Assembly: GCA_032027045.1 (NCBI GenBank)
Contig: JAVSMU010000001.1
Span: 110,345 to 174,344 of the forward strand
Direction of reading: 5' to 3'
Length of the DNA: 64,000 bases
Origin: Truepera sp.
GTDB lineage: Bacteria; Deinococcota; Deinococci; Deinococcales; Trueperaceae
Made by a program: the position numbers and the translations under genes. Below the pieces are notes generated by a model that was not told the DNA's origin, made no database searches, and worked only from the letters and a program-made list of their open reading frames with translations. This document shows, piece by piece, positions 31,737-60,737 of the stretch; position 1 is the first letter of the stretch; each line of letters begins with the position of its first letter.

Positions 31737-33773
31737 TCACTTGCTGACCTCGATCAGCACGCCACTCATGGGCAGGCCGGTGACAGTCGCCGCCAAGCCC
31801 GAATCCGCACCCTGCGCCACCACCTGCTCGAGCGTCAACTGGAAGCTCGCAGTGGGGGGAACAGCCGTACGGCACGCCACCAGGCTCAGGCAAGCCAGCA
31901 CTAGTAGGACCAGACGTGACTTCCGGCGCCGGACGAAGAGAAGCGGAGGGATCAGTAGGCCGGCAAGGGCCAACCAGCCTGTTGCGGGCGCGGCGCCTCG
32001 GGGACCGAGTGCCGAGCCGGCGACGGCCCCGTCAAGATCGACGACAAGCAGGTAGTGAGCGCTGCCGCCGGCCGCAACAGTGGCTCCTTCGCCAAGCGCC
32101 AGCGCTGCCGTGGTCGAGCCCGGCGCGAAGGCGCCGCTCGCCAACGGGGTACTCCCAGGATCGAGGTTGCCGTCACCGTCGGCGTCAGAGTGAAGTGCGA
32201 CTCTGGCGATTCCGTTCGCTACAGCCACGCTATCGACCTCCACGCGCAGCCCGCTGATAGCTACGGCCTCCGTGGTGCCGGAGGTGGCTGTCAGGCCCAA
32301 GGCCACCACGTCGGTCGCACCGCGCTGGACCTTGTCCGTGGTGCTGGCGGCGGGGTGAGGCGTGATGGCAAGATCTGGTGGGGTAACCGGGGCGGCTTTC
32401 GAAACGGCGGTTGTTGCGGAGGCTTGGTTGTTGGTCTCGTTGGGGTCGGGGGTGTCGCTGCTGACGGTTGCCGTGTTCGTCAGTGGTCCCTCTTGGGCGG
32501 GCGCCGTGACGTTGATATCCCAGGTGACGCTCTCGCCGTTGGCCAGAGTGCCGGCGGTGCAGGTCACGACCGCGTTGTTTTGAGTGCAGCCGCTGCTTGC
32601 CGATCCGAATGTCACGCCACCTGGCAGGGTGTCATCCATCGTCACGTCAGTGGCGGTGGAGGGGCCGTGGTTGGCAACGACCAGCGTGTAACTGATTGGG
32701 CCACCCGTCAGCACTGAGCTGGGCCCGTTCTTCGAGACGGCGAGGTCGGCGGTGGCCAGGATCACGCTGGTGGTAGCGGTAGACTGGTTATTCGCTTCAT
32801 CAGGGTCGAAGGTGTCGCTCGTGACCGTTGCCCTGTTCGTCAGTTGCCCCACTTGGGCGGGCACCGTGACGTTTATCTCCCAGGTGACGCTCTCGCCGTT
32901 GGCCAGCGTGCCGGCGGTGCAGGTCACTATCCCGTTGTCGTCGCTGCAGCCGCTGCTTGCCGATCCGAATGTCACGCCGCCTGGTAGGGCATCTTCCACC
33001 ATAATGTTGGTGGCGGTGTCGGGCCCGTGGTTTACAACCACCAGCGTGTAACTGATCGGGTCTCCTTGCGTTACCGTGCTTGGCCCGGTCTTCGATATGG
33101 CGAGGTCGGCGGTGGGTGGAATCACGCTGGTCGCAGCAGTAGCTAGGTCGTTGCCCTCGTTGGGGTCGAGGGTGTCGCTGCTGACGGCTGCCTTGTTCGT
33201 CAGTGATCCCACTTGGGCGGGCGCCGTGACGTTGATATCCCAGGTGACGCTCTCGCCGTTGGCCAGCGTGCCGACGGTGCAGGTCACTATCGCGCTGTTC
33301 TCGCTGCAGCCGCTGGAAGCCGACTCGAACACTACGCCGTCGGGCAGGGCGTCGTCCACCCTGACGTTGGTGGCGGTGTCGGGCCCTTGGTTGGCTACGA
33401 CCAGCGTATAGCTGATCGGGTCTCCCGTCAGCACCGAGCTGGGCCCGTTCTTCGAGAGGGCGAGGTCGGCGGAGTCCGGCGCCATCACGGTGATGGGGAA
33501 GTCGTTCATCGGGTTGCCGGTGGCTCGCACCGCGCCTGCCGGATACGCACCATTGTCGTTGACCAGCAAGTCGTAGGCGGTGAAGTCGAGGTCGGTGGCG
33601 GTCGTTGTAACCGTAGGGGTCGCTGCTAGTGCAGTGCTAGCCAAGATGCCCGCCAAGACAGCCGCAGTAATCATCAGGTTGCCGCCCGAGAGACGGCCGG
33701 CGCGGTCCTGCGCCAGGCGACGCAGGCGGCTTTTCTTGCCGACGTCAGCTACCCGAACGTCAGTAACCGTCAT
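31737..33773 (-). CDS. DUF11-repeat surface protein with anchor and second lipobox
   Basis: 678 aa. A signal peptide (after a basic N-terminus; ends LASTALAA) precedes three tandem DUF11 repeats of about 120 residues, each starting ADLA(I/L)SK.GPS and containing SYTLVV.N.GP.TAT and TLANGESVTW(D/E)INV. After a spacer domain come a Pro/Ala-rich APATGWLALAGLLIPPLLF helix and RRRKSR (sorting-signal-like). The frame then continues with LVLLVLACLSLVACRT, which looks like a new lipoprotein signal with an LVAC box, and a further 50 residues. ATG 33773 overlaps the upstream gene by 14 bp. A cell-surface adhesion or structural role is typical for DUF11 proteins. Confidence 0.8.
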   Translation of the reverse strand: MTVTDVRVADVGKKSRLRRLAQDRAGRLSGGNLMITAAVLAGILASTALAATPTVTTTATDLDFTAYDLLVNDNGAYPAGAVRATGNPMNDFPITVMAPDSADLALSKNGPSSVLTGDPISYTLVVANQGPDTATNVRVDDALPDGVVFESASSGCSENSAIVTCTVGTLANGESVTWDINVTAPAQVGSLTNKAAVSSDTLDPNEGNDLATAATSVIPPTADLAISKTGPSTVTQGDPISYTLVVVNHGPDTATNIMVEDALPGGVTFGSASSGCSDDNGIVTCTAGTLANGESVTWEINVTVPAQVGQLTNRATVTSDTFDPDEANNQSTATTSVILATADLAVSKNGPSSVLTGGPISYTLVVANHGPSTATDVTMDDTLPGGVTFGSASSGCTQNNAVVTCTAGTLANGESVTWDINVTAPAQEGPLTNTATVSSDTPDPNETNNQASATTAVSKAAPVTPPDLAITPHPAASTTDKVQRGATDVVALGLTATSGTTEAVAISGLRVEVDSVAVANGIARVALHSDADGDGNLDPGSTPLASGAFAPGSTTAALALGEGATVAAGGSAHYLLVVDLDGAVAGSALGPRGAAPATGWLALAGLLIPPLLFVRRRKSRLVLLVLACLSLVACRTAVPPTASFQLTLEQVVAQGADSGLAATVTGLPMSGVLIEVSK

Positions 33774-34728
33774 AGTCGAAGCTCCCCGTCGCTGCGTCGA
33801 AGCCCGAGCAGCCGGCGGCGGCCCAGCAGCCTTGAGCGTTGTTGGTGTCGCTCCACGTCTGCTCGTCGACGAGGCCGCTGGTGCAGTCCTCGAACGAAGT
33901 GCACGCCCCGCCCTGCCCCAGCGCCTGCCCGCCGCCACCGTCCCGGCCGACCCACGACCTGACGGTCTCCTCGCCAAACGCGATGATGAGCACGCCGAGC
34001 GCGAACTCGCGCTGTTCCGCCTGGCTTGCAGCCGGCCAGTTGACCCTTACGCGCTTCCAGATCTCCCGCGACTGCGCCATGACGACCTGGTCCACCTGAT
34101 CGGCGGCCGGGTAGCTCGCGGCTATGGCTTCGAGCATCTGACTCCTCTCGGCGTCGGTGAAGCTGTAGGCGTAGCCTATCTCCCCTAGGACGAACTCGAG
34201 GGCCTCGATGAAGGCCAGGGCGTTGTCACGCGTGAGGGTGGCGTAGGCGCCGGTCGCCAGAACCTCGCTGGGCGCGGCGGCGACAGCGCCGGTTGCGCGA
34301 GGGGCCGGCGGCCCACCGACCCCGGCCTGCATGTTTGGACTCGCGGCAGAAGTCCTGTCAAGTATGAGCTCGATGGCGGTTTCCAGCAGCGGCGTCCCGG
34401 CCGCGTCCATCTCGAAGACGTAGAGGCCAAGTGTGTCGCCTTGGAGGTAGGCCTCGAACATCAGCGTTCCGCTGGCACTACTCGCATAACCGACGCCTAC
34501 ACCGTCCACGACGTAGCCCTCCAAGGCGAGCTCCATGCCCGGCACCCGAATGTTGCCAGTGAGCTTGTCGCCTGCCATGGTCAGCTCGACGGCCACGGCG
34601 CCCGTCGTAACGGTCGTGACGAACGTTCCCGTGAAGTCCTGGGCACCGGCCTGTCCCGCCAGTCCGAGTACCACACAACACGCTAACGCCAACTTCGTGG
34701 CCGACCTCTGCATGAAACCCTCCTTCAT
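33760..34728 (-). CDS. Secreted protein of unknown family
   Basis: 322 aa. A signal peptide ends near GLAGQAGAQ. A beta-rich N-terminal domain (GTFVTTVTTGAVAVELTMAGDKLTGNIRVPGMELALEG and YLQGDTLGLYVFEM) resembles a lipocalin-like/ligand-barrel fold. A helical region follows (YSFTDAERSQMLEAIAASYPAADQ). The C-terminus is Gly/Cys-rich (CTSFEDCTSGL, CWAAAGCSGF), with probable disulfides. ATG 34728 is chosen because it overlaps the stop of the small upstream gene (ATGA); ATG 34713 after AAGGAGG is an alternative. Function unknown; probably exported together with the DUF11 protein. Confidence 0.7.
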   Translation of the reverse strand: MKEGFMQRSATKLALACCVVLGLAGQAGAQDFTGTFVTTVTTGAVAVELTMAGDKLTGNIRVPGMELALEGYVVDGVGVGYASSASGTLMFEAYLQGDTLGLYVFEMDAAGTPLLETAIELILDRTSAASPNMQAGVGGPPAPRATGAVAAAPSEVLATGAYATLTRDNALAFIEALEFVLGEIGYAYSFTDAERSQMLEAIAASYPAADQVDQVVMAQSREIWKRVRVNWPAASQAEQREFALGVLIIAFGEETVRSWVGRDGGGGQALGQGGACTSFEDCTSGLVDEQTWSDTNNAQGCWAAAGCSGFDAATGSFDYDGY

Positions 34729-34895
34729 CGCAACTCCCGCCTCACCGAAACCTCGCGTAAGTACTTCAGGGCCGCTTCCCACGAATCGAACTCCTGCACT
34801 TTCTGGCTACGCAGGTCGAGCAGCACGATGCGTTGGCGGTCGTGTTCACTCACGACGCGGACGATCACGCTGATCGTCTGACTTGGGCGCGGCAT
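34725..34895 (-). CDS. Small 56-aa protein, translationally coupled
   Basis: 56 aa, starting with ATG 34895 and ending with TGA 34725-34727, which overlaps the next gene's ATG (ATGA). The product (SQTISVIVRVVSEHDRQRIV, then LLDLRSQKVQEFDSWEAALKYLREV) reads as a small beta-beta-beta-alpha domain without low-complexity bias. It sits 51 bp after the BTAD-ATPase gene. No family is recognised; tight coupling on both sides argues that it is real. Confidence 0.6.
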   Translation of the reverse strand: MPRPSQTISVIVRVVSEHDRQRIVLLDLRSQKVQEFDSWEAALKYLREVSVRRELR

Positions 34896-34946
34896 GCTCG
34901 GACTATGGCAAGCCTGGCGTTATGCCCCCGTTACGCCCAGGTCGGT

Positions 34947-37928
34947 CTAGCTGGGCCTCCCTCCGTCATCGGGTCGGCCCGTGCGCCCGGCTCGAGCCAC
35001 CATGGCGGAGTCGAGGCGCTCGCGCATGTACTGCGGCAACGTCTCGAGGTAGGGCGGTGACAGCGCCTCCCACAGCCGGGCCAAGTGATGCTCGTCACCC
35101 AGCAGCACCACTGCTATCGCTACCGCCCCGTGGGCGACCACGTAGTCGGTAGAGAAGAGCAATGCGAGGGCCTCGTCCAGCAGGCCACCGACCTCGGCCG
35201 CCCGCCCGAGGGCCGCCTGGCACTCGGCGCTACGAGCGAGCGCGATGAGCCGGAGATGCGGCTGGTCCTGCTGCAGGGTGAGGACGTCATAGTGGCGCAG
35301 CGCCTCCTCGAAGCGACCAGCCTGGAAGTGGTTCACGGCCAGGTTCACTCGGAGTATCGGTACGTTGTCGTAATCGCCGAGTTCGAGCGCGCGCTCGGCG
35401 TAGGTGACTGCTTCGTCGTGGCGGCCGAGGTCGGCGAGGCAATAGAGAAGGTTGATGGTTGCTTCGACCTGGTGGTAGCGAGATCCCAGAGCCCTCGCCA
35501 AGTCGAGAGCCTCGAGGTGGAGTGGGAGTGCCAGGTCGTGCTGACCCCGGTCGTCGTGCAAGGCGGCCAGACTGGTGAGGAACTGGACCAGGCGCAGGCT
35601 CGGCCGGCGCGTGCGCAACTCAGCCGCGGCAGGTTCGAGCAGGTGGATCGCTTCGTCGGTCCTCTGCAACTCCTTCGCCACGGCTGCGCGCTGCATCAGG
35701 AGGTCGAGGCGCAACTCGGGATCGTCGACCACAGCGGCCAAGCTGATCGCCTCGGCCTGGATCGCCGCGGTGGCGCCTACAGAACCGCGGTTCAGGGTCA
35801 GCCATCCGCGTGCCAGCGCGGCCCTGAGCCGGAGTGCGGGCGATTGGTGCGCGGCAGCCTCGACGGCTTCGAGTAACGCGAGGGCGTCGTCCGACCTGCC
35901 TGACTCACGTAAGGTATCGACCAGCGCCAGGCGCAACCCGTCGACGGTCTCGCCCGGTGCCAGCCGGGAAATGGCCGCCTCCAGTACCGAGACGGCATCC
36001 TCGTGCATGCCCCGCGCCCGCATGGCGTTGGCTTTTTCGAGCCAGGCCGCCGCCGCCTTCTCCCGCTCACCGGCTGCGTGCCAGTGCTCGGCCACCACCC
36101 CCACGTCAACGGTGTCGCTGAGCGCTTCGGCCATCAGCGCGTGCAGCAGTTCGCGCTTAGCCGGCTCGACTCTCTGGTCCAACGTTTGGCGCAGCAGGTC
36201 GTGCCTGAACCCACCGCCGGCCAGGAACCCGGCATCACCAGCTTCGTCGATGGCGTCCGCCACGGCTGCGGGAGTCAGGCCAGTGATGAGCGCCACCTGG
36301 CTCGTACCCAGGCGACTCCGAGCTAGCGCCAGCACCTCCAGAACCGTGATCGTTGGACCAGAAAGCCGGTCGAGCCGGCGTTGGATGACCTCGGTCACCG
36401 CCGCCGGCACCTCCAACTCCGAGTAGTCGACCGTGATGTCGTCGACGTCGGTGTGCCAGCCGCTCGCGTCCGCGCGCAGCACCCCGGTCTCGAAGAGCGA
36501 GCGGACGGTCTCGAGGACGAACATCGGGTTGCCGCCGGTCCGTTCCCACAGCAGATGCGAGAAGACCGGCGGGCCGGCAGGGCGCTGCATCAGGTCACCG
36601 ATGAGCGCCTGTACTCCGGCGGCGGAGAGCGGCTCCACGCTCACCTCCACCAGGCCGCCGCCGTTTCGCAGGGCGGCGATGGCCCCCGCGAGGTCGCTTC
36701 CCACCTCACCGGTGCGGTAGCTACCGTAAACGCGTGTCCCGTGACCGGCGCAGAAGACGAGCGTCTCGATGGTGGCGGGATCGGCCCACTGGAGGTCATC
36801 CACCACGATGATGCCGCCGCCGGCGGCAACGAAGCGGAAGAATGCCTGAACCAGGCGACCTCTGGCGGCGCCCGGCTCGACCGGAGGGGGCACTAGTCCA
36901 GGGGCGACCTCGGGCACCAGGCGCGCTAAGTCCTCGAGGTAGGGGCCGAGCCCAGCGGCGAACTCGGTGTGGTTGCGAACCAACTCGGCCAACGGGTGGT
37001 AGGGGAGGTGCTCGAGGCCCTCGTGCGCCTCACACTTGAGTGGCCAAGGCAACAACTCGTTGAGCAGTGCGCTCTTGCCGACGCCGGGTTCTCCCTTGAC
37101 TAGCACCACGTTGGCCGTCGCGCTCAGCAGTGCGTTCCTGGCTTCGTCGCGCCCCACCAGCCTGGTTGGCTGTAGTGGCCACGCTCTAGCGCCGGCCCCG
37201 ACTCGGGGAACCTCTGCCAGTGCCAGGGGTTCGCCGCGCTTGATCCGCTCCACCAGGGCGGAGGTCGCCTCCAGTGGCGCGAGGCCGAGTTCGACGTCCA
37301 GGTAGTCCGCGAAGCGCTCATAGGTGTGAAGGGCAGCGTCGCGGCGCCCGTCGAGGTAAAGCGCCTGCATGTAGGCCGTCACTACCTCCTCGGCCAAGGG
37401 GTCGAAGGAGAGCAGCTTGGCCAGGTGCTGCGACGCCGCGCCGTAGCGGCCGCCTGCCGTGGCCGCTCTGGCCGTGCGCAAACACACCTCGTGATAAGCC
37501 GCGTGGAGGCTCTCACGTTCGCCCTCTATCCACGCATTTACGCCGCCGGCGTCGGGCACGGCGAAACCGTGGAGGAACCGCCCGCGGTAGACGGCGAGGG
37601 CCTCCTCAGCGTTGCCGTTGGCCAGGGCGTAGCGGAACTCACCCACATCGGACGCGACCCGCCATCTGATGGCGTCGGGCGAAACGTCGAGCGGCGGGTC
37701 GTCGGGTGCCAGCCGCCTGGCGCGCAGCAGCAACTGGCGCAGGTTTCGTTTGGCGCCACTCTCGTCCGAGTCTGGCCAGAACAGCAGGGCCAGCCGGTCG
37801 CGCTCTACCCAGCCGCCCTCGACAGCCAGATGAGCGAGCAGGCAACCGCGGCGGTCTGCCGGTAGGGCTTCGCCCGTGGCGTGATCACCGATGACCGCGC
37901 CACCTAACAGCGACAAGCGAGTTGACAT
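34947..37928 (-). CDS. BTAD-domain STAND ATPase regulator, copy 1 (AfsR-like)
   Basis: 993 aa. N-terminal winged helix (about 1-85: LSLLGGAVIG...LLAHLAVEGGWVERDRLALLFWPDSDESGAKRNLRQLLLRARRL) and bacterial transcriptional activator domain (about 95-240, TPR-like, ending LDVELGLAPLEATSALVERI). An AAA/STAND ATPase follows, with Walker A VLVKGEPGVGKSALL near residue 283 and Walker B GIIVVDDLQWADP, then an array of TPR-like helices to the C-terminus. SARP/AfsR proteins with this layout bind direct heptamer repeats upstream of targets. It is divergent from an NTF2/SnoaL gene and heads a four-gene minus-strand operon. Possible -10 TAACAT lies 9 nt before the ATG. Confidence 0.87.
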   Translation of the reverse strand: MSTRLSLLGGAVIGDHATGEALPADRRGCLLAHLAVEGGWVERDRLALLFWPDSDESGAKRNLRQLLLRARRLAPDDPPLDVSPDAIRWRVASDVGEFRYALANGNAEEALAVYRGRFLHGFAVPDAGGVNAWIEGERESLHAAYHEVCLRTARAATAGGRYGAASQHLAKLLSFDPLAEEVVTAYMQALYLDGRRDAALHTYERFADYLDVELGLAPLEATSALVERIKRGEPLALAEVPRVGAGARAWPLQPTRLVGRDEARNALLSATANVVLVKGEPGVGKSALLNELLPWPLKCEAHEGLEHLPYHPLAELVRNHTEFAAGLGPYLEDLARLVPEVAPGLVPPPVEPGAARGRLVQAFFRFVAAGGGIIVVDDLQWADPATIETLVFCAGHGTRVYGSYRTGEVGSDLAGAIAALRNGGGLVEVSVEPLSAAGVQALIGDLMQRPAGPPVFSHLLWERTGGNPMFVLETVRSLFETGVLRADASGWHTDVDDITVDYSELEVPAAVTEVIQRRLDRLSGPTITVLEVLALARSRLGTSQVALITGLTPAAVADAIDEAGDAGFLAGGGFRHDLLRQTLDQRVEPAKRELLHALMAEALSDTVDVGVVAEHWHAAGEREKAAAAWLEKANAMRARGMHEDAVSVLEAAISRLAPGETVDGLRLALVDTLRESGRSDDALALLEAVEAAAHQSPALRLRAALARGWLTLNRGSVGATAAIQAEAISLAAVVDDPELRLDLLMQRAAVAKELQRTDEAIHLLEPAAAELRTRRPSLRLVQFLTSLAALHDDRGQHDLALPLHLEALDLARALGSRYHQVEATINLLYCLADLGRHDEAVTYAERALELGDYDNVPILRVNLAVNHFQAGRFEEALRHYDVLTLQQDQPHLRLIALARSAECQAALGRAAEVGGLLDEALALLFSTDYVVAHGAVAIAVVLLGDEHHLARLWEALSPPYLETLPQYMRERLDSAMVARAGRTGRPDDGGRPS

Positions 37929-37957
37929 CCGAAGTTCATGTTACGGGAAGTACGCCT

Positions 37958-38087
37958 GAGAACCGCGCCCGAGTACCGCGCCCGAGTACCGCGCCCGAGT
38001 ACCGCGCCTGAGTACCGCGCCCGAGAACCACGCCTGAGTACCCTGGCTGAGAATCACGCCTGAGTACCGTGCCCGGGAACCGGGCCG
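37958..38087. repeat. Ten-unit 13-bp tandem repeat
   Basis: Ten head-to-tail 13-bp units with consensus GAGTACCGCGCCC run without gaps from 37958 to 38087; the last few diverge (for example GAGAATCACGCCT). The array lies 29 bp upstream of the BTAD-1 start and directly abuts the heptamer repeats before the NTF2/SnoaL gene. Unit length differs from the 11-bp operator spacing. It may be a regulator-binding array, a transcription-affecting spacer or a replication-slippage tract. Confidence 0.85.
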
Positions 38088-38121
38088 CATCACGCCTCCA
38101 TCACGGCAGCCCACCTAACCT
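38088..38121 (+). promoter_or_regulatory. SARP-type direct repeat and -10 box, NTF2/SnoaL-1 promoter
   Basis: CATCACG at 38088-38094 and again at 38099-38105 (11 bp apart) is followed after exactly 10 bp by TAACCT (38116-38121), a candidate -10. The same layout occurs at 42359-42392. SARP/AfsR regulators bind heptamer repeats spaced 11 bp that replace the -35 box, so the divergent BTAD protein is the obvious candidate. Confidence 0.6.
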
Positions 38122-38163
38122 CGCCCAACCCCGAGCACGGGCAAGGCGGAGGGAGGAAGCGTC

Positions 38164-38289
38164 ATGAGAAGAGCTTTCGTCGCAAGGTCGACAGGTACTC
38201 CCGGCATCACGGTCGGAACACTCACCGTAACCAGGAGGGCCGTCGAGGACGTGGATCTTTACGCGGGTGAGTTGGGGGGTGCACTGTGA
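38164..38289 (+). CDS. Small 41-aa leader ORF coupled to NTF2/SnoaL-1
   Basis: 41 codons from ATG 38164 behind a strong GGGAGGAAG site, ending in a TGA that overlaps the next gene's GTG (GTGA). The product (RRAFVARSTGTPGITVGTLT, then VTRRAVEDVDLYAGELGGAL) has no signal peptide and no recognised family. It may be a leader peptide that sets translation of the NTF2-like gene, or a true small protein. Confidence 0.5.
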   Translation: MRRAFVARSTGTPGITVGTLTVTRRAVEDVDLYAGELGGAL

Positions 38290-39218
38290 CACGCCCGGCC
38301 ATGCCCCAACAAGATGCGGGAGCTAGCAATAAGGCGGTCATCCTGCGCTTCATCGACGCCCTCAACAACGAAGGCAAGACGGACGAGATCCTGGAACGCC
38401 TCACCAGCTCACCTGCCCTGAAGAACAAGGCCGCGTCGTACGAGGCCAGGTACCCGGGCTTCCAGATAAGCCCCGTTGACCTGGTCGCCGAGCGGGACCT
38501 GGTGGCTATAAGGTTCTTCACCGATTTCGGGACGACGGCTGTGGCGTCGCGGCCCACCGATGAGGCCGGGCGCGACGAGGCCAGGCCGGAGAGGGTGGAG
38601 GCCATCGCCATCTGCCGACTGGCGGGCGGACGAGTCACCGAGTTCTGGTACGAATCAGATGTGCTCGGCCAGGTGATCGCCGTGGGGGAGCAGCACCCAG
38701 CCGACGCGCACCGCGCTCGTGCGCACCGCTCCAAGACCGATCGGGCCGGCAACAGCTTCGACGGTCATGACGGTGCGGGCATCAACGAGGACCGCGAGGC
38801 GAACCGGTCGCTCATCCTGCGTTACCTCTCTGCTCTTAATAACCAGGAGAAAACCCTCGAGCTCATCGAGCGCTTCGCAAGCGATCCGGTGCTGGCCGGG
38901 CGCATCTTCGCCTTCGAATCGGGCTTCCCGGGTTACAGCCTGTTGGCGGACGAGATCATCGCTGAAGGCGACAAGGTCGTCGTGCGCTTCCACACCAAAC
39001 AGCGCCACACCCGCGAGTACATGGGGATACCGGCAACCGGCAAGGAGTTCTCGATCTCGGGGATCATCATCTGCCGCATCGAGAAGGGCCTGATCGCCGA
39101 GAGTTGGCTCCAGGCCGACACGTGGGCTTTGACTCAGGAGCTCGAGGAGAGCCAATCCAGGGAGAAGAAGTCCAAGCCTCAATGCCCCGAGTGGCGATCG
39201 TTCCTTGCCGATCTTTGA
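38286..39218 (+). CDS. Tandem NTF2/SnoaL-like two-domain protein
   Basis: 310 aa from GTG 38286; an ATG at 38301 is also possible. Two SnoaL/NTF2-like domains follow each other: about 15-130 (NKAVILRFIDALNNEGKTDEI...RVEAIAICRLAGGRVTEFWYESD) and about 175-290 (NRSLILRYLSALNNQEKTLELI...EYMGIPATGKEFSISGIIICRIEKGLIAESWLQAD). The second fits the ester-cyclase/SnoaL pattern closely, while the first has a modified tail (no MGIPATG) and may be non-catalytic. No signal peptide. It is divergent from the BTAD-1 gene with SARP-like repeats between them. Confidence 0.8.
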   Translation: MTRPAMPQQDAGASNKAVILRFIDALNNEGKTDEILERLTSSPALKNKAASYEARYPGFQISPVDLVAERDLVAIRFFTDFGTTAVASRPTDEAGRDEARPERVEAIAICRLAGGRVTEFWYESDVLGQVIAVGEQHPADAHRARAHRSKTDRAGNSFDGHDGAGINEDREANRSLILRYLSALNNQEKTLELIERFASDPVLAGRIFAFESGFPGYSLLADEIIAEGDKVVVRFHTKQRHTREYMGIPATGKEFSISGIIICRIEKGLIAESWLQADTWALTQELEESQSREKKSKPQCPEWRSFLADL

Positions 39219-39239
39219 GGCGTTGACGCTTGCGCTTGA

Positions 39240-42200
39240 TCAAGCGGAGTGCAGCAGCAACCGGACGGCCTCCTCCAGGCTCGGGAGAACTTCGTGCCCC
39301 GGCTCCTCGCTCGGCCGCGAGGCTACGGTTGGGCGCGTCACCGACTCATCGCCCGCCAGTAAGTCACGTGCCCGCTTGCGTTGCGCTGGGCTTGCCGCCG
39401 GGTGGTCCTCGACCATTCGCAACAGGCCTTGCGCGCGTGGCGCGAAAACTGGGAGTTGCGCCAACTCGACCAGCACCGCCAGCGTCATCGGTACTTCCCC
39501 CAGTTGATCTGCGATGCGCAACGCCGCTAACAGATGAGCGTGGCGCGCGCCGGCCTCCGGCTCCACTTGTCCCAGGATCAACGACGCCTCGGCCTGCAGC
39601 GCCCGCTGCCCCAGCTCTTCGGCGACCGCCTTGGCCTCCCGAGCCGCCGTGGCGGCGGCTTCGCGGTCGCCAAGCTTCAGTTTGGCCGTGGCCAGCTGCG
39701 TCTTCAGGTACGGGACGCGCAGCCGGAACAGAACGCCTTCGGCCAGCTCGAGTCCGTGCTCGAAGTGGGCTGCCGCTGCCGCGGCGTCACCAGCCTCGAG
39801 GCTCAACCGCCCAAGATAGTCGAGGTCGTTGACGATGCCGGGGGTGTTACCGAGTGCCTCGTTGGTGGCCAGTGCAAGGTCGAACAGGGCTCTTGCCTCG
39901 TCCAAGCGCCCCGACCTCAGCTCCAGTAACCCAAGTTGTCCCGCCGCCAGCGCCGAAGCCCACTGGTCGTTGATCGACTGGGCAAGCGTCAGGGCCGCCT
40001 CCAACAGTCGCCTCGCTCCCGCCGCGTCACCGCGCCGTGAGGCCACCGAGCCTTGGGTCATAAGGGCGCGCAGCTCGACGGCATGCGCGTTGATTCCAGA
40101 GACCAGTTCCAGACAGGCTTGCGCCTCGAGCACCGCTTCATCGAAGAGCCCAAGCCCGGCCATGAACCAGGCCCGGTTGGCCTTCAACGTGGCAAGTAGT
40201 TGGACGCCATGTTCGAAGTTGCCTTCCCGACCGGCGAAGCGCTCGATGCTGGCGGCGAAGAGCCGTTCTCCCTCGGTGAACCTGCCTTGGATGCCGTGGA
40301 ATAGCACCAGTGGGTCGCAGCCGTTCAAGCACTCGGCTACCCAACCGCACTCGATCGCCTCGAGCCAAGCGGCCTTCAGGTTCTCGTAGTCCGGGGCGAA
40401 CTGAGCAAGCATCTGAGGTTGCTGCGGCCCATGCAGACGGCTGCTCCAACTGCCCAGCATCTTTACGTAGTAGCGCGCGTGCGCGCTCCGCAGGCTGCGA
40501 GCCTCGTCGGGGGTTTTGTCCAACTGCTCGTGCATGAAGCGCTGTATCAGCGGGTGTCGATCGTAGCGGTGGTCGGCCGTCAGGCGTAGGAGCGACTTGT
40601 CGACGAGAGCCGTCAGCAGCGGCAACGAAATTCCGGTGACTCCGCGCGCACCTGCCCTGTCGAAGCTGCCGTGGAACACCGCCAGGTGGCTGAAAGCGCG
40701 CTGCTCGGCCTCGCTCAGGAGTTCCCAGGAGTGCTCGAAGGCAACGCGCAGCGTGCGGTGGCGCTGCTCCGTATCCACCGCGGCGCTCGGCAACGAGTCG
40801 AGGCTCGTCTCGAGGGCCGCGAGCACCTCCTGCAAGCTCATCATCCGAAGCCAACCGGCGGCTAGTTCTATACCCAACGGCAACCCTTCGAGGAACCGGC
40901 AGACTCTCACCGCAGCCGGATACGACGCCGGCGTGATGGTGAAGCCGGGTTCGACCTGGCGAGCCCGCTCGTGAAGCAGCCTGAGCGCGTCGTAGGCAAG
41001 CGGGTCCTCCAACGCTTCCGGCTGTCCGTTGGCGGCCGTCGGTGCGGGTGGGGTCGGTAGCCCCGCCACGGGCAACAGCCACTCCGCTTGCAGCCTGAGC
41101 CGCTCGCGCGAGGTGATCATCACCTTGAGCCTGGGGCAGTTGCTGAGTAGCTCATGGACGAGGGGCGCCGCAGCCGTGAGGTGCTCGAAGTTGTCCAGCA
41201 CGAGTAGAAGTTCGCGCTCTTTCAGGTAGTCGATCAGCTGGTCCAGTGGCGGGCGTTGCCTGCGCAACTCCACGCCTAGTGCCGCTGCCAGCCGGAACGG
41301 GAAGGCGTCTGGCGAGTCGAGGGGGGCCAGGGCAACGGCCACGTGGCCATCTTTGAAGCTCGACGACAGCGACTCGGCGGCACGTAGTGCCAGTCTGGTC
41401 TTGCCCACGCCGCCCGGACCCACCAAGGTGAGCAGCCGACACTGCTCGGAGGTGATCCGTTGGATGGTTTCCGCCAGTTCCGCCTGGCGGCCTACGAACG
41501 AAGTGAGCGGGGCAGACAACGTCCGCCCCCTGTCGTTCTCACCAACACCGACCGGCGGTTCTGGTTCCTCCAATCCCAACTGGACACGCTCATGGCTCAC
41601 GAGGCGTTCGGTGGCTGCAGAAGGCGCGAACCCGAGTTCGGCCTGCAGGCGCGTGGCGAAGACCTGCAGTCTCCTGCGCGCATCGTCGACCGCTCCCGAC
41701 TTCACCAGCAGCCGCAGCAACAGTTGCAGCACGTCCTCGTCGAGCGGATCCTGCGTCAGCAAGCGCTCGTAGAGGCCCGCGGCCTCGTTTGGCCGACCCG
41801 CCGATTCCGCCTTGACTGCCTGCTGCAGCGCTGCGTGCCGCTGTGACTCGCGCAACTGTGAGCGCTCGAACTCGAGCCAGTTCGCGAACTCGCTGGCCTC
41901 GTCGAGCACCAGCCCCTCGGCGAGGTCACCGCCGTAGTGGTCCAGCGCCGAGCGCCAGTCCTCTCGAGAGAGTGCGTACCTGAACGCCTTGACGTCACTC
42001 TCCACCGTCCAGCGCAGGCGCTTGTCGTCGGCGTCGACCGGAATGTCGAACGGCAGGGCCTTGGTCCTCGCCAGGAGTTGGCGCAAGTTGACGCGCGCCT
42101 GAGAGCTGTGCGTGTCCGGCCAGAAGAGGAACGACAGCCGTTCGCGGCTGACCCAGCCCTCGGCGCAAGCGAGATGGGTGAGCAGTCCAAGGCGCTTGTC

Positions 42201-42272
42201 GAGCGGAACGTCGCGCCACTGGGCGCCGTCCCGTATGCTCGGCGGCCCGAGCAGGCGGACCACTATTGCCAT
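39240..42272 (-). CDS. BTAD-domain STAND ATPase regulator, copy 2 (AfsR/NB-ARC-like)
   Basis: 1010 aa. Winged helix (about 1-80: IVVRLLGPPSIRDGAQWRDVP...LTHLACAEGWVSRERLSFLFWPDTHSSQARVNLRQLL), BTAD (about 90-240), then an NB-ARC-type ATPase: Walker A TLVGPGGVGKTRLAL near residue 287 and Walker B LLLVLDNFEHL. TPR-like helices fill the C-terminal half. It has the same overall plan as copy 1 with a different ATPase subclass. Start 42272 is chosen because TACACT lies 6 nt upstream (leaderless); the longer reading adds a Cys-rich segment without support. Convergent with NTF2/SnoaL-1, divergent from NTF2/SnoaL-2. Confidence 0.87.
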   Translation of the reverse strand: MAIVVRLLGPPSIRDGAQWRDVPLDKRLGLLTHLACAEGWVSRERLSFLFWPDTHSSQARVNLRQLLARTKALPFDIPVDADDKRLRWTVESDVKAFRYALSREDWRSALDHYGGDLAEGLVLDEASEFANWLEFERSQLRESQRHAALQQAVKAESAGRPNEAAGLYERLLTQDPLDEDVLQLLLRLLVKSGAVDDARRRLQVFATRLQAELGFAPSAATERLVSHERVQLGLEEPEPPVGVGENDRGRTLSAPLTSFVGRQAELAETIQRITSEQCRLLTLVGPGGVGKTRLALRAAESLSSSFKDGHVAVALAPLDSPDAFPFRLAAALGVELRRQRPPLDQLIDYLKERELLLVLDNFEHLTAAAPLVHELLSNCPRLKVMITSRERLRLQAEWLLPVAGLPTPPAPTAANGQPEALEDPLAYDALRLLHERARQVEPGFTITPASYPAAVRVCRFLEGLPLGIELAAGWLRMMSLQEVLAALETSLDSLPSAAVDTEQRHRTLRVAFEHSWELLSEAEQRAFSHLAVFHGSFDRAGARGVTGISLPLLTALVDKSLLRLTADHRYDRHPLIQRFMHEQLDKTPDEARSLRSAHARYYVKMLGSWSSRLHGPQQPQMLAQFAPDYENLKAAWLEAIECGWVAECLNGCDPLVLFHGIQGRFTEGERLFAASIERFAGREGNFEHGVQLLATLKANRAWFMAGLGLFDEAVLEAQACLELVSGINAHAVELRALMTQGSVASRRGDAAGARRLLEAALTLAQSINDQWASALAAGQLGLLELRSGRLDEARALFDLALATNEALGNTPGIVNDLDYLGRLSLEAGDAAAAAAHFEHGLELAEGVLFRLRVPYLKTQLATAKLKLGDREAAATAAREAKAVAEELGQRALQAEASLILGQVEPEAGARHAHLLAALRIADQLGEVPMTLAVLVELAQLPVFAPRAQGLLRMVEDHPAASPAQRKRARDLLAGDESVTRPTVASRPSEEPGHEVLPSLEEAVRLLLHSA

Positions 42273-42358
42273 GCTCAGAGTGTAGACGAGGCACGTCTTG
42301 CAAAGCGGGCGCCGTCCGGAGCTTGCCACCACCGCTACGGGCGGGGCACCGCACGGCG

Positions 42359-42392
42359 CATCACGCCGGCGTCACGCCCCTCTAACTAACTT
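42359..42392 (+). promoter_or_regulatory. SARP-type direct repeat and -10 box, NTF2/SnoaL-2 promoter
   Basis: CATCACG at 42359-42365 and CGTCACG at 42370-42376 (11 bp apart), then exactly 10 bp, then TAACTT (42387-42392). Arrangement and sequence match the first NTF2/SnoaL promoter at 38088-38121. The surrounding bases differ, which argues for selection on the motif itself. Confidence 0.6.
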
Positions 42393-42442
42393 GACTCACC
42401 GCGGCCCCACGGACCCAAACTCGAGCCGCGTAGGAGGACGAC

Positions 42443-42933
42443 ATGGCACGGTTACGGATGACGCTACTCACACTGGCAGCACTCGCCATCAGCGGTCCGG
42501 GACTCGCGCAACAAACCGACGCCGAGGCGGCCGCCGCTACGTCCGCCGAGACGCGCAGGGTCTTCGAGGCCTACGCCAAGGACCACGACACCAAGTACTA
42601 CGCGGAGAACGCCACGTTCATCGACATGACCCATCCAGACCAGGTCATCGAGGGCCGCGACGCGATCAAGGCGTTCATCGGCGCGTTCTAGGCGGCGCCT
42701 TCGGAGACGGACGCTACGAACTGCAGAGCATGATCGTCGAGGGGAAATACGCGATGCAGGAGTCGATCTTCTACGGCACCCACACCGGACCGCTGGGTAA
42801 CATCCCGGCCACCGGCAGGACCGTCGAGTTCCCGTTCATGACCGCCTACTTGATCGAGAACGGCGAGATCGTGTGGGGGCACCTGTACTACGACTCCACT
42901 ACCCTGTTGAGGCAGCTTGGGGTCATCGAGTAG
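42443..42933 (+). pseudogene. Secreted NTF2/SnoaL-like protein with a frameshift
   Basis: The first frame (42443-42691) gives a signal peptide ending GPGLAQ and an NTF2-like start (RRVFEAYAKDHDTKYYAENATFIDMTHPDQVIEGRDAIKAFIGAF) before a TAG. The homologous continuation, LGGAFGDGRYELQSMIVEGKYAMQESIFYGTHTGPLGNIPATG and WGHLYYDSTTLLRQLGVIE, is in another frame up to 42933. One missing base around 42687-42691 explains it. Promoter and AGGAGGA site are intact, so this is either a recent mutation or a sequencing error. Confidence 0.7.
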
Positions 42934-43468: not shown

Positions 43469-44846
43469 AGTCAAGTCCCGAATTGTCTGTAAATCCCTCC
43501 AGGGCCAGTCATCGCTAGGCTGCCAAGCTCACCTCCTCACCAGTGGTCGACGATGCGGCGGAGTTAACCTCGAGCAGTTCCATGTCCAGGTACTTCCGGC
43601 CCGATAGCCACTCCTCGCTTTGCTCCACGCACATGGCGGTGATGAGGCGCAGGCAAGCCTCGCGGTTCGGGAAGATGCGAACCACCCTCGTTCTTCGCTT
43701 CAGTTCCTGGTTGAAACGCTCCAGGCCGTTCGTCGAGCGGATGCGCCGCCGATGAGGCTCAGGGAACGAGAAGCACGCCAGCGTCGCCTCGATGCCGACC
43801 TCGATCCATTCCGCCACCGCCGGATGCGAGGCACTCCAGCGCTCCACCACCTCCTTGGCGAGAGAAAACGCCCACTCCTGGTCGGACGCCGCGAAGATCG
43901 CCTTCAGGTCAGCCGTGAGCGCCGCCTGATGCTTCCGAGCTACCTTGCCACGCGCGTTCCTCAGGAAGTGCACCTGGCAACGCTGCCAACTGGCGCCCTG
44001 GAAGTGCCGCTGGATGGCGGCCACCAGGCCCTTGTGATCATCGCTCGTCACGAGCTGCACACCGCTCAGGCCGCGCTCCTTCAGACGCCGGAAGAGGCCG
44101 TCGTAGGTCGCCTCCGACTCCGAGTCGGCCACGTCCACGGCCAGCAGCTCCCGTTGCCCGTCACTCCGCACGCCTTTGACCACCAGCACGCCCTGGCTCA
44201 CCACCCGCCCATCCACCCGCACGTGCTCGTAGCGCGCATCAACCACCAGGTACGGATAGGAGCAGGCGTCCAAGCGCCGCTCGCGCCACGCCGCCAAGTC
44301 AGCGTCGAGCTGGCCCGCCAAGCGGCTCACGGTGCTCTTGCTGAAGCTGGTGCCGCACAACACCTCGGTGACGTCCTTCACCTTCCGCGTCGACACGCCC
44401 TCCAGGTACATCTCCATCAGCGACAGCACCAACGCCTTCTCGCTGCGCTGGTACCGGTCGAACAGCTCCGTCTTGAAGGTGCCCTCCCGGTCCATCGGCA
44501 CCAGCAGTGAAAGCGTGCCCACGCGCGTCTTGAGCTGCCGAGGACGGTAACCGTTACGGTAACCGCGCCGCCCCTCGGTCCGCTCATGCGGGTCAGCGTT
44601 CAGGTGCAGGGTGATCTCCTCCTCCAACAACCGCTGCAGCGTCGATTGCACGATGTCACGCAAGAAATCGGGTTGATCCACCAGCGCCTCACGCAAACGC
44701 GTCGTCAAAACACTATCCTTCAGTTGAGTCATCGTTCACTCCGTTCCAGGGGTAGTTCGCACTTCCCATTCTGGAGGAGCGATGGCTCCTTTCTCTCACG
44801 ACAAATTCGCAGAGCCACCTAATTTACAGAGCTTACGGGGCGCGGT
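43469..44846 (-). mobile_element. IS256-family insertion sequence, copy 2
   Basis: 1378 bp, the same length as copy 1, in opposite orientation. It is flanked by the 9-bp target duplication CCAAGAAGG at 43460-43468 and 44847-44855. It disrupts abiEii. The two IS copies bracket a 20.3-kb segment as inverted repeats, which recombination could invert. Confidence 0.93.
43515..44732 (-). CDS. IS256-family (mutator-type) transposase, copy 2
   Basis: 405 aa, the same protein as copy 1 residue for residue, with the mutator-type D-D-E motifs intact. Being intact on both copies, either could mobilise the other. Confidence 0.95.
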   Translation of the reverse strand: MTQLKDSVLTTRLREALVDQPDFLRDIVQSTLQRLLEEEITLHLNADPHERTEGRRGYRNGYRPRQLKTRVGTLSLLVPMDREGTFKTELFDRYQRSEKALVLSLMEMYLEGVSTRKVKDVTEVLCGTSFSKSTVSRLAGQLDADLAAWRERRLDACSYPYLVVDARYEHVRVDGRVVSQGVLVVKGVRSDGQRELLAVDVADSESEATYDGLFRRLKERGLSGVQLVTSDDHKGLVAAIQRHFQGASWQRCQVHFLRNARGKVARKHQAALTADLKAIFAASDQEWAFSLAKEVVERWSASHPAVAEWIEVGIEATLACFSFPEPHRRRIRSTNGLERFNQELKRRTRVVRIFPNREACLRLITAMCVEQSEEWLSGRKYLDMELLEVNSAASSTTGEEVSLAA

Positions 44847-60512: not shown

Positions 60513-60737
60513 ATGGCTCAGCAACATCGCCCAGCCCAGGCGAGGCGCACGCCGACCGGCCAGGCCGGCACGTCGTTCGTCATCACCCTGTGGCTCGAGC
60601 CCACCGATGAAGCGAAGCGCCCTGAATGGCGCTGGCGTGTCACCGGGGGGCAGCACGGCGAGCAGCGGTACTTCAGGAGCGTCGCAGACCTCCTGACTTA
60701 CGTCAGCGAATGCACCGCACTCCCGCCGCCAGATTGA
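60513..60737 (+). CDS. Small conserved-looking hypothetical protein
   Basis: 74 aa. After a basic, disordered N-terminus comes a compact beta domain (SFVITLWLEPTDEAKRPEWRWRVTG and QRYFRSVADLLTYVSE). The pattern, a strand-rich part with RYF and a final helix, resembles unnamed small proteins seen beside respiratory genes in related bacteria; no family name is claimed. Divergent from mobA, 51 bp upstream of the DUF59 gene and probably in its operon. Confidence 0.6.
   Translation: MAQQHRPAQARRTPTGQAGTSFVITLWLEPTDEAKRPEWRWRVTGGQHGEQRYFRSVADLLTYVSECTALPPPD

Follow-up and report, generated by a model that had tools for sequence, protein, structure and literature searches.

The window analysed here is a 64,000-nucleotide (nt) stretch of a Truepera sp. 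genome that forms one contig of 2.92 Mb; our statements on that genome are based on pattern searches and fetched stretches. It carries two large regulators, BTAD1 and BTAD2, each divergent from a gene for an NTF2/SnoaL-like protein (SnoaL1 and SnoaL2), and in front of both SnoaL genes lies the same arrangement of two 11-base-pair (bp) direct repeats and a -10 element. The two exact copies of CATCACG-N4-CRTCACG-N10-TAACYT reported in the original prediction are present at 38088-38121 (CATCACGCCTCCATCACGGCAGCCCACCTAACCT) and 42359-42392 (CATCACGCCGGCGTCACGCCCCTCTAACTAACTT). A window scan allowing up to 3 mismatches returned the same two matches and no further one in 64 kb (0 in 100 shuffles), and in the whole genome these two exact copies are joined by a single further site, which has 3 mismatches, against 0 for the reversed-pattern control. 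Both copies are real and belong to a widespread class of sites with an AfsR-like layout. We propose, with a probability of about 0.77, that they are AfsR-type operators coupled to a -10 element, that BTAD2 most likely acts on the SnoaL promoters and BTAD1 on a third operator with the word CRTAACG, and that the locus is one case of a wider class.

Regulators and operators at the locus

The open reading frames (ORFs) of both regulators are as originally described. Pfam recovers three of the four parts proposed for them, namely BTAD (7e-19 in BTAD1), a STAND ATPase of the AAA/NB-ARC kind (AAA_16 in BTAD1, AAA_22 in BTAD2) and TPR (TPR_12 in BTAD1), and the P-loops read GEPGVGKS in BTAD1 and GPGGVGKT in BTAD2. 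The fourth part, the winged helix, has no Pfam match in either regulator and comes from the AlphaFold2 (AF2) model of the N-terminus. Because a PDB sequence search with the full regulators gave mostly TPR matches, it was replaced by an N-terminal profile and the AF2 model. The model of BTAD2 residues 1-255 (predicted local distance difference test, pLDDT, 88.5) matched the AfsR complexes 8k60/8hvr and EmbR (2ff4/2fez) in the PDB fold search, with no others below E 0.001; the EmbR match has a Foldseek E of about 1e-8 to 1e-7 and an N-terminal profile value of 1.7e-10. The locus presents three features of large SARP systems: a BTAD behind an OmpR-type winged helix, C-terminal STAND/NOD ATPase and TPR parts, and 11-bp direct repeats beside a -10 element. 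On the NCBIfam equivalog for AfsR proper (NF053617) the regulators score 40.9 and 57 bits, below the curated cut-off of 1430, and judged by sequence both are SARP-like and not AfsR orthologs. BTAD1 has orthologs with 49-55% identity in no fewer than 8 further Trueperaceae genomes, and several Trueperaceae metagenome-assembled genomes carry relatives of BTAD2.

The -10 box first proposed, TAAC(C/T)T, is exact in both window sites and is not required in the wider set, which fits TAnnnT or CAnnnT. In Deinococcota, TANNNT works as a -10 element and leaderless starts are a known habit of the phylum (PMC12340547). The features are collected in Table 1. Operator 3 is retained ahead of this small gene at BTAD1 orthologs as well, where the gene is predicted to start leaderless. 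Ten copies of a 13-bp unit, CGCCCGAGTACCG (37953-38086), separate the start of BTAD1 from operator 1; we rejected them as an operator since their period is 13 rather than 11.

Table 1 Features of the locus, in window coordinates (aa, amino acids)
Feature	Position	Strand	Evidence or remark
BTAD1, large SARP-type regulator, 993 aa (winged helix, BTAD, STAND ATPase, TPR)	34947..37928	-	ORF, translation, Pfam
BTAD2, large SARP-type regulator, about 1010 aa from ATG 42272	39240..42272	-	ORF (open to 42332), Pfam
Operator 1, two 11-bp direct repeats CATCACGCCTC CATCACGGCAG	38088..38109	+	exact match, 0 in shuffles
-10 element TAACCT, 6 bp past operator 1	38116..38121	+	sequence
Operator 2, CATCACGCCGG CGTCACGCCCC	42359..42380	+	exact match
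-10 element TAACTT, 6 bp past operator 2	42387..42392	+	sequence
Operator 3 (CGTAACG/CATAACG), CGTAACGGGGG CATAACGCCAG	34914..34935	-	directly behind BTAD1 stop codon
-10-like CATAGT, 6 bp past operator 3, 6 nt ahead of ATG	34902..34907	-	predicted leaderless start; similar layout in more BTAD1-type loci
56-aa member of unnamed small-protein family	34725..34895	-	predicted fold β-β-β-α; associated with BTAD genes
Exported protein (MQRSATKLALACCVVLGLAGQAGAQ...)	33760..34713	-	translation; no Pfam family
41-aa ORF (putative) behind operator 1, strong Shine-Dalgarno, overlaps SnoaL1 GTG start	38164..38289	+	sequence, translation
SnoaL1, 310 aa, two SnoaL/NTF2-like halves, predicted target	38286..39218	+	Pfam SnoaL 6e-21 on residues 211-286
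SnoaL2, SnoaL-like protein, secreted (signal peptide), frameshift near 42690	42443..42933	+	two-frame translations; Pfam SnoaL on second frame

Recurrence, spacing and target genes

We searched 39 genomes of the family (Trueperaceae) and 111 Deinococcota genomes with the relaxed pattern RTCACG-N5-RTCACG-N10-TANNNT. Exact matches number 16 in the family set and 24 in the phylum set, and the reversed pattern gave 0 in both. Of the 14 family matches that lie outside the window, 7 adjoin a BTAD gene related to BTAD2 and mostly stand ahead of a gene for a secreted protein, so that the scan for co-occurrence of motif and BTAD genes suggested by the original prediction is positive, as it is in the sets described below. 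BTAD genes are present in 38 of the 39 family genomes, at 1 to 27 per genome.

Spacing was assessed in a set chosen blind to the motif, consisting of 80 stretches at BTAD genes picked by Pfam score alone and three stretches of the own genome (83 loci). When exact 7-bp repeats followed by TAnnnT were counted, a period of 11 bp gave 17 sites, whereas the 17 other periods examined averaged 2.9. A second test held the register fixed, accepted 6 of 8 matching positions and compared 11 bp with eight other spacings (8-10 and 12-16). Where sites have a downstream gene start, the product is exported in 15/28 cases at 11 bp and in 0/43 at the eight other spacings; export was called with a simple signal-peptide rule of our own, which 17% of all genes in BTAD loci pass. 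Over the distant BTAD loci (Chloroflexi and others) we found no CRTCACG sites, and the enrichment at 11 bp is weak overall and clear only for small-protein genes. A search of the 39 genomes with CRTCACGN{1,13}CRTCACG was not used for spacing: among the matches listed, forward counts lie far above reversed ones at many gaps, probably from coding repeats.

The small gene behind operator 3 belongs to a family of about 55-90 aa that recurs beside BTAD genes, with homologs in 55 of the 111 Deinococcota genomes and also beside BTAD genes of Chloroflexota. It has no Pfam or NCBIfam family, and its AF2 model (pLDDT 84) found no significant fold match in the PDB. An 11-bp operator with a suitable -10 element precedes 17 of 31 of these genes in one homology-selected set and 29 of 57 in a second, newly fetched one, both with Chloroflexota loci included, compared with at most 2 sites at any other spacing; orthologs within the sets inflate these counts somewhat. 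In the new set, 31/57 genes have a BTAD gene no more than 2 kb away. The sites, as predicted from sequence, form a widespread class in Deinococcota that reaches into Chloroflexota. A second member of the small-protein family lies in the window at 60572-60707 (+), with no 11-bp repeat operator found upstream.

In another family (L139, G042:C13), three promoters within 6 kb have the common word AGTCACGCTCC-AGTCACG and stand ahead of exported proteins and the small protein; they are likely a local regulon. One BTAD-SnoaL divergent pair was found outside the window, an independent case (G016:C18, L205/L238) in which TGCGACACCTG TGCGACACATG, 6 bp and CAAACT precede the SnoaL gene. SnoaL proteins are not special among the targets, most of which are other exported proteins or the small unnamed protein.

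The NTF2/SnoaL identity of both predicted window targets holds, with a Pfam SnoaL match in each. The layout first described, with two divergent pairs, is present and needs three qualifications: SnoaL1 is also tail-to-tail with BTAD2 and hence adjoins both regulators; the 41-aa ORF, for which no homology was found, is probably the first gene to start behind operator 1; and SnoaL2 is split between two frames, one with the signal-peptide half and the other with the remaining SnoaL domain, either as a pseudogene or through an assembly error. A Mutator-family transposase lies near SnoaL2 at 43515-44732. On the other side of the locus, the exported protein at 33760..34713 is probably co-transcribed behind the small gene, and downstream of BTAD1 (31737-33977, -) lies a gene for an exported DUF11-repeat protein, in which a 360-bp unit is repeated in tandem about three times. 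No biosynthetic cluster was seen among the genes examined near the regulators (SnoaL, exported, DUF11 and transposase genes).

Regulator-site pairing and competing explanations

The repeat words differ beside different BTAD genes and include GGAACGC, TGCCAACGG, TTTGACACC, CTTTAAGCC, TGAAACGG and TTGCGACG, among others. In the own genome a separate word accompanies each of at least four or five BTAD genes, and the TGCCAACGG footprint is kept in 4 species of the genus, ahead of an exported solute-binding-like protein. Word similarity covaries weakly with the similarity of the recognition helices (Mantel r 0.15, 12/2000 permutations), and this persists when similarity in the rest of the domain is allowed for (partial, 39/2000).

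The word CRTAACG goes with BTAD1 (34935-34902) and with its orthologs in two further genomes: the G009 ortholog (54% identical) is oriented divergently to the small gene, and the G021 ortholog (40% identical) has the operator directly behind its stop codon and a lipoprotein downstream. A BTAD2 ortholog in G009 (53% identical) lies beside a CATCACG/CGTCACG operator. Because CRTAACG tracks BTAD1 orthologs and CRTCACG a BTAD2 ortholog, BTAD2 is most likely the better candidate for both SnoaL operators. This is at odds with the idea of two self-contained modules, put forward in the original prediction, in which BTAD1 would control SnoaL1 and BTAD2 SnoaL2 from their own divergent promoters with a near-identical word. 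That idea draws on the divergent layout of both pairs, on the NLRQLL common to the recognition helices of both regulators and on the CGTCACG repeat within BTAD1-type operators of some species. It is countered by the division of words between the orthologs and by the tail-to-tail position of SnoaL1 and BTAD2, a layout as in locus L034 of G009, and we consider it unlikely. CRTAACG-type operators also precede two lipoprotein genes and an NmrA-like gene at G000:C1:46694 (-), 2809511 (-) and 42379 (+) (L049, L051), where the fetched stretch contains no BTAD gene; these are possible remote targets of BTAD1, to go by their word.

OmpR/PhoB response regulators also have 11-bp repeats next to the -10 element, and PhoB-type boxes are 11-bp direct repeats that overlap the -35 position; therefore, the geometry alone cannot name the bound protein. 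A response regulator of this family might bind the repeats while the BTAD genes are mere neighbours or further targets, the more so as the DNA-binding domain of AfsR is itself OmpR-type. However, the sites are enriched in loci picked for BTAD alone, the word changes from one neighbouring BTAD gene to another and weakly follows the recognition helix that the gene encodes, and several different words coexist in one genome, each beside a BTAD gene of its own. This makes a response regulator an improbable binder. That the repeats arose by chance or from base composition in GC-rich intergenic DNA and play no regulatory role is more improbable by far. The 13-bp tandem array beside operator 1 does illustrate that repeats arise locally, but the motif is absent from the shuffles, the relaxed pattern occurs 24 times against 0 reversed, and the enrichment is specific to 11 bp in three motif-blind sets, with exported targets at that spacing only.

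Several observations weigh against AfsR-type control by BTAD2 and BTAD1 as we propose it, in addition to the geometry shared with response regulators. About half of the family CRTCACG matches beyond the window lack a nearby BTAD gene, and the relaxed CRTCACG pattern has no exact site in the 5 other genomes of the same genus. The P values for the 11-bp enrichment are overstated, as the site counts include orthologs. The words do not divide neatly between the two regulators: BTAD1-type operators in G029, G035 and G015 have CGTCACG as their first repeat. Finally, one of the two presumed targets, SnoaL2, is frameshifted.

Mechanism, known systems and significance

We infer binding, activation, cognate pairing and signal gating along the following lines. 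A large SARP-like regulator, most likely BTAD2, would place two protomers side by side, one per 11-bp repeat; once bound, it would substitute for a -35 element and activate both SnoaL genes by recruiting RNA polymerase to the TAnnnT box that follows after 6 bp. BTAD1 would act likewise at CRTAACG, before the small unnamed protein and the exported protein. The ATPase/TPR part presumably keeps the activator off until ATP and a signal are present; a gated activator of this kind was part of the original prediction and is supported, with the gating itself modelled on AfsR. Across the class, each regulator would have its own repeat word in a fixed geometry, with mostly exported proteins and the small protein as targets.

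The closest parallel is the AfsR/afsS promoter of Streptomyces coelicolor, which has the same two 11-bp direct repeats and a poor or absent -35 element, and whose regulator has the same winged helix, BTAD, STAND/NOD and TPR parts (PMC10936776). In the AfsR complex each protomer sits on one 11-bp repeat, from -40 to -19 (PMC10936776), which by our own arithmetic leaves 6 bp from the second repeat to a -10 hexamer at the usual position assumed (-12 to -7), the gap of the window sites. The operator grammar shared by both window promoters, and its earlier likening to SARP heptamers at an 11-bp period by a -10 box, are borne out by this comparison. The T at position 3 of the AfsR repeat (T-38, contacted by R92) is present in both CRTCACG and CRTAACG, and an alignment through EmbR suggests an arginine at the R92 helix position in both regulators. 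The window sites differ in their words, their phylum and the leaderless start predicted at the BTAD1 target, and have exported proteins and a small protein without a name as predicted targets, not afsS or antibiotic clusters.

Operators of PimR-type SARP-LAL regulators likewise combine heptamers with 4-bp spacers in two or three copies, but with the word CGGCAAG, another C-terminal part and a setting in Streptomyces polyene clusters (PMC5930380). EmbR of Mycobacterium tuberculosis has the same N-terminal fold, with an FHA domain in place of the ATPase/TPR part. Among experimentally studied cases in the phylum, DnrS of Thermus thermophilus comes closest: it contains a BTAD and is needed in vivo for transcriptional activation. 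It differs in its N-terminal GAF and C-terminal BTAD and in its role in denitrification, and its operator is undefined there (PMC5748679). The earlier statement that no named system of this kind exists therefore stands in part: the mechanism is the known SARP/AfsR one, while no account of a SARP/BTAD operator was found for Deinococcota or Chloroflexota in literature whose coverage excludes most subscription journals. Within that literature, a previously undescribed branch of a known promoter kind, together with a new associated small-protein family, is well supported.

It is conceivable, at somewhat less than even odds, that the class is a multi-phylum set of orthogonal AfsR-type switches, in which each BTAD-STAND regulator has its own word in a fixed geometry, an exported target and a dedicated small β-β-β-α protein, perhaps one that partners the ATPase/TPR part in signalling or feeds back on it. 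BTAD/STAND regulators are common in the family, yet we found no paper that assigns them operators or targets, and the fixed geometry makes regulator-target pairs predictable. The AfsR promoter architecture would extend well beyond Streptomyces and beyond antibiotic clusters, the words offer a natural set for the study of SARP recognition and for building orthogonal promoters, and the class draws attention to a so far unnamed family of possible partner proteins.

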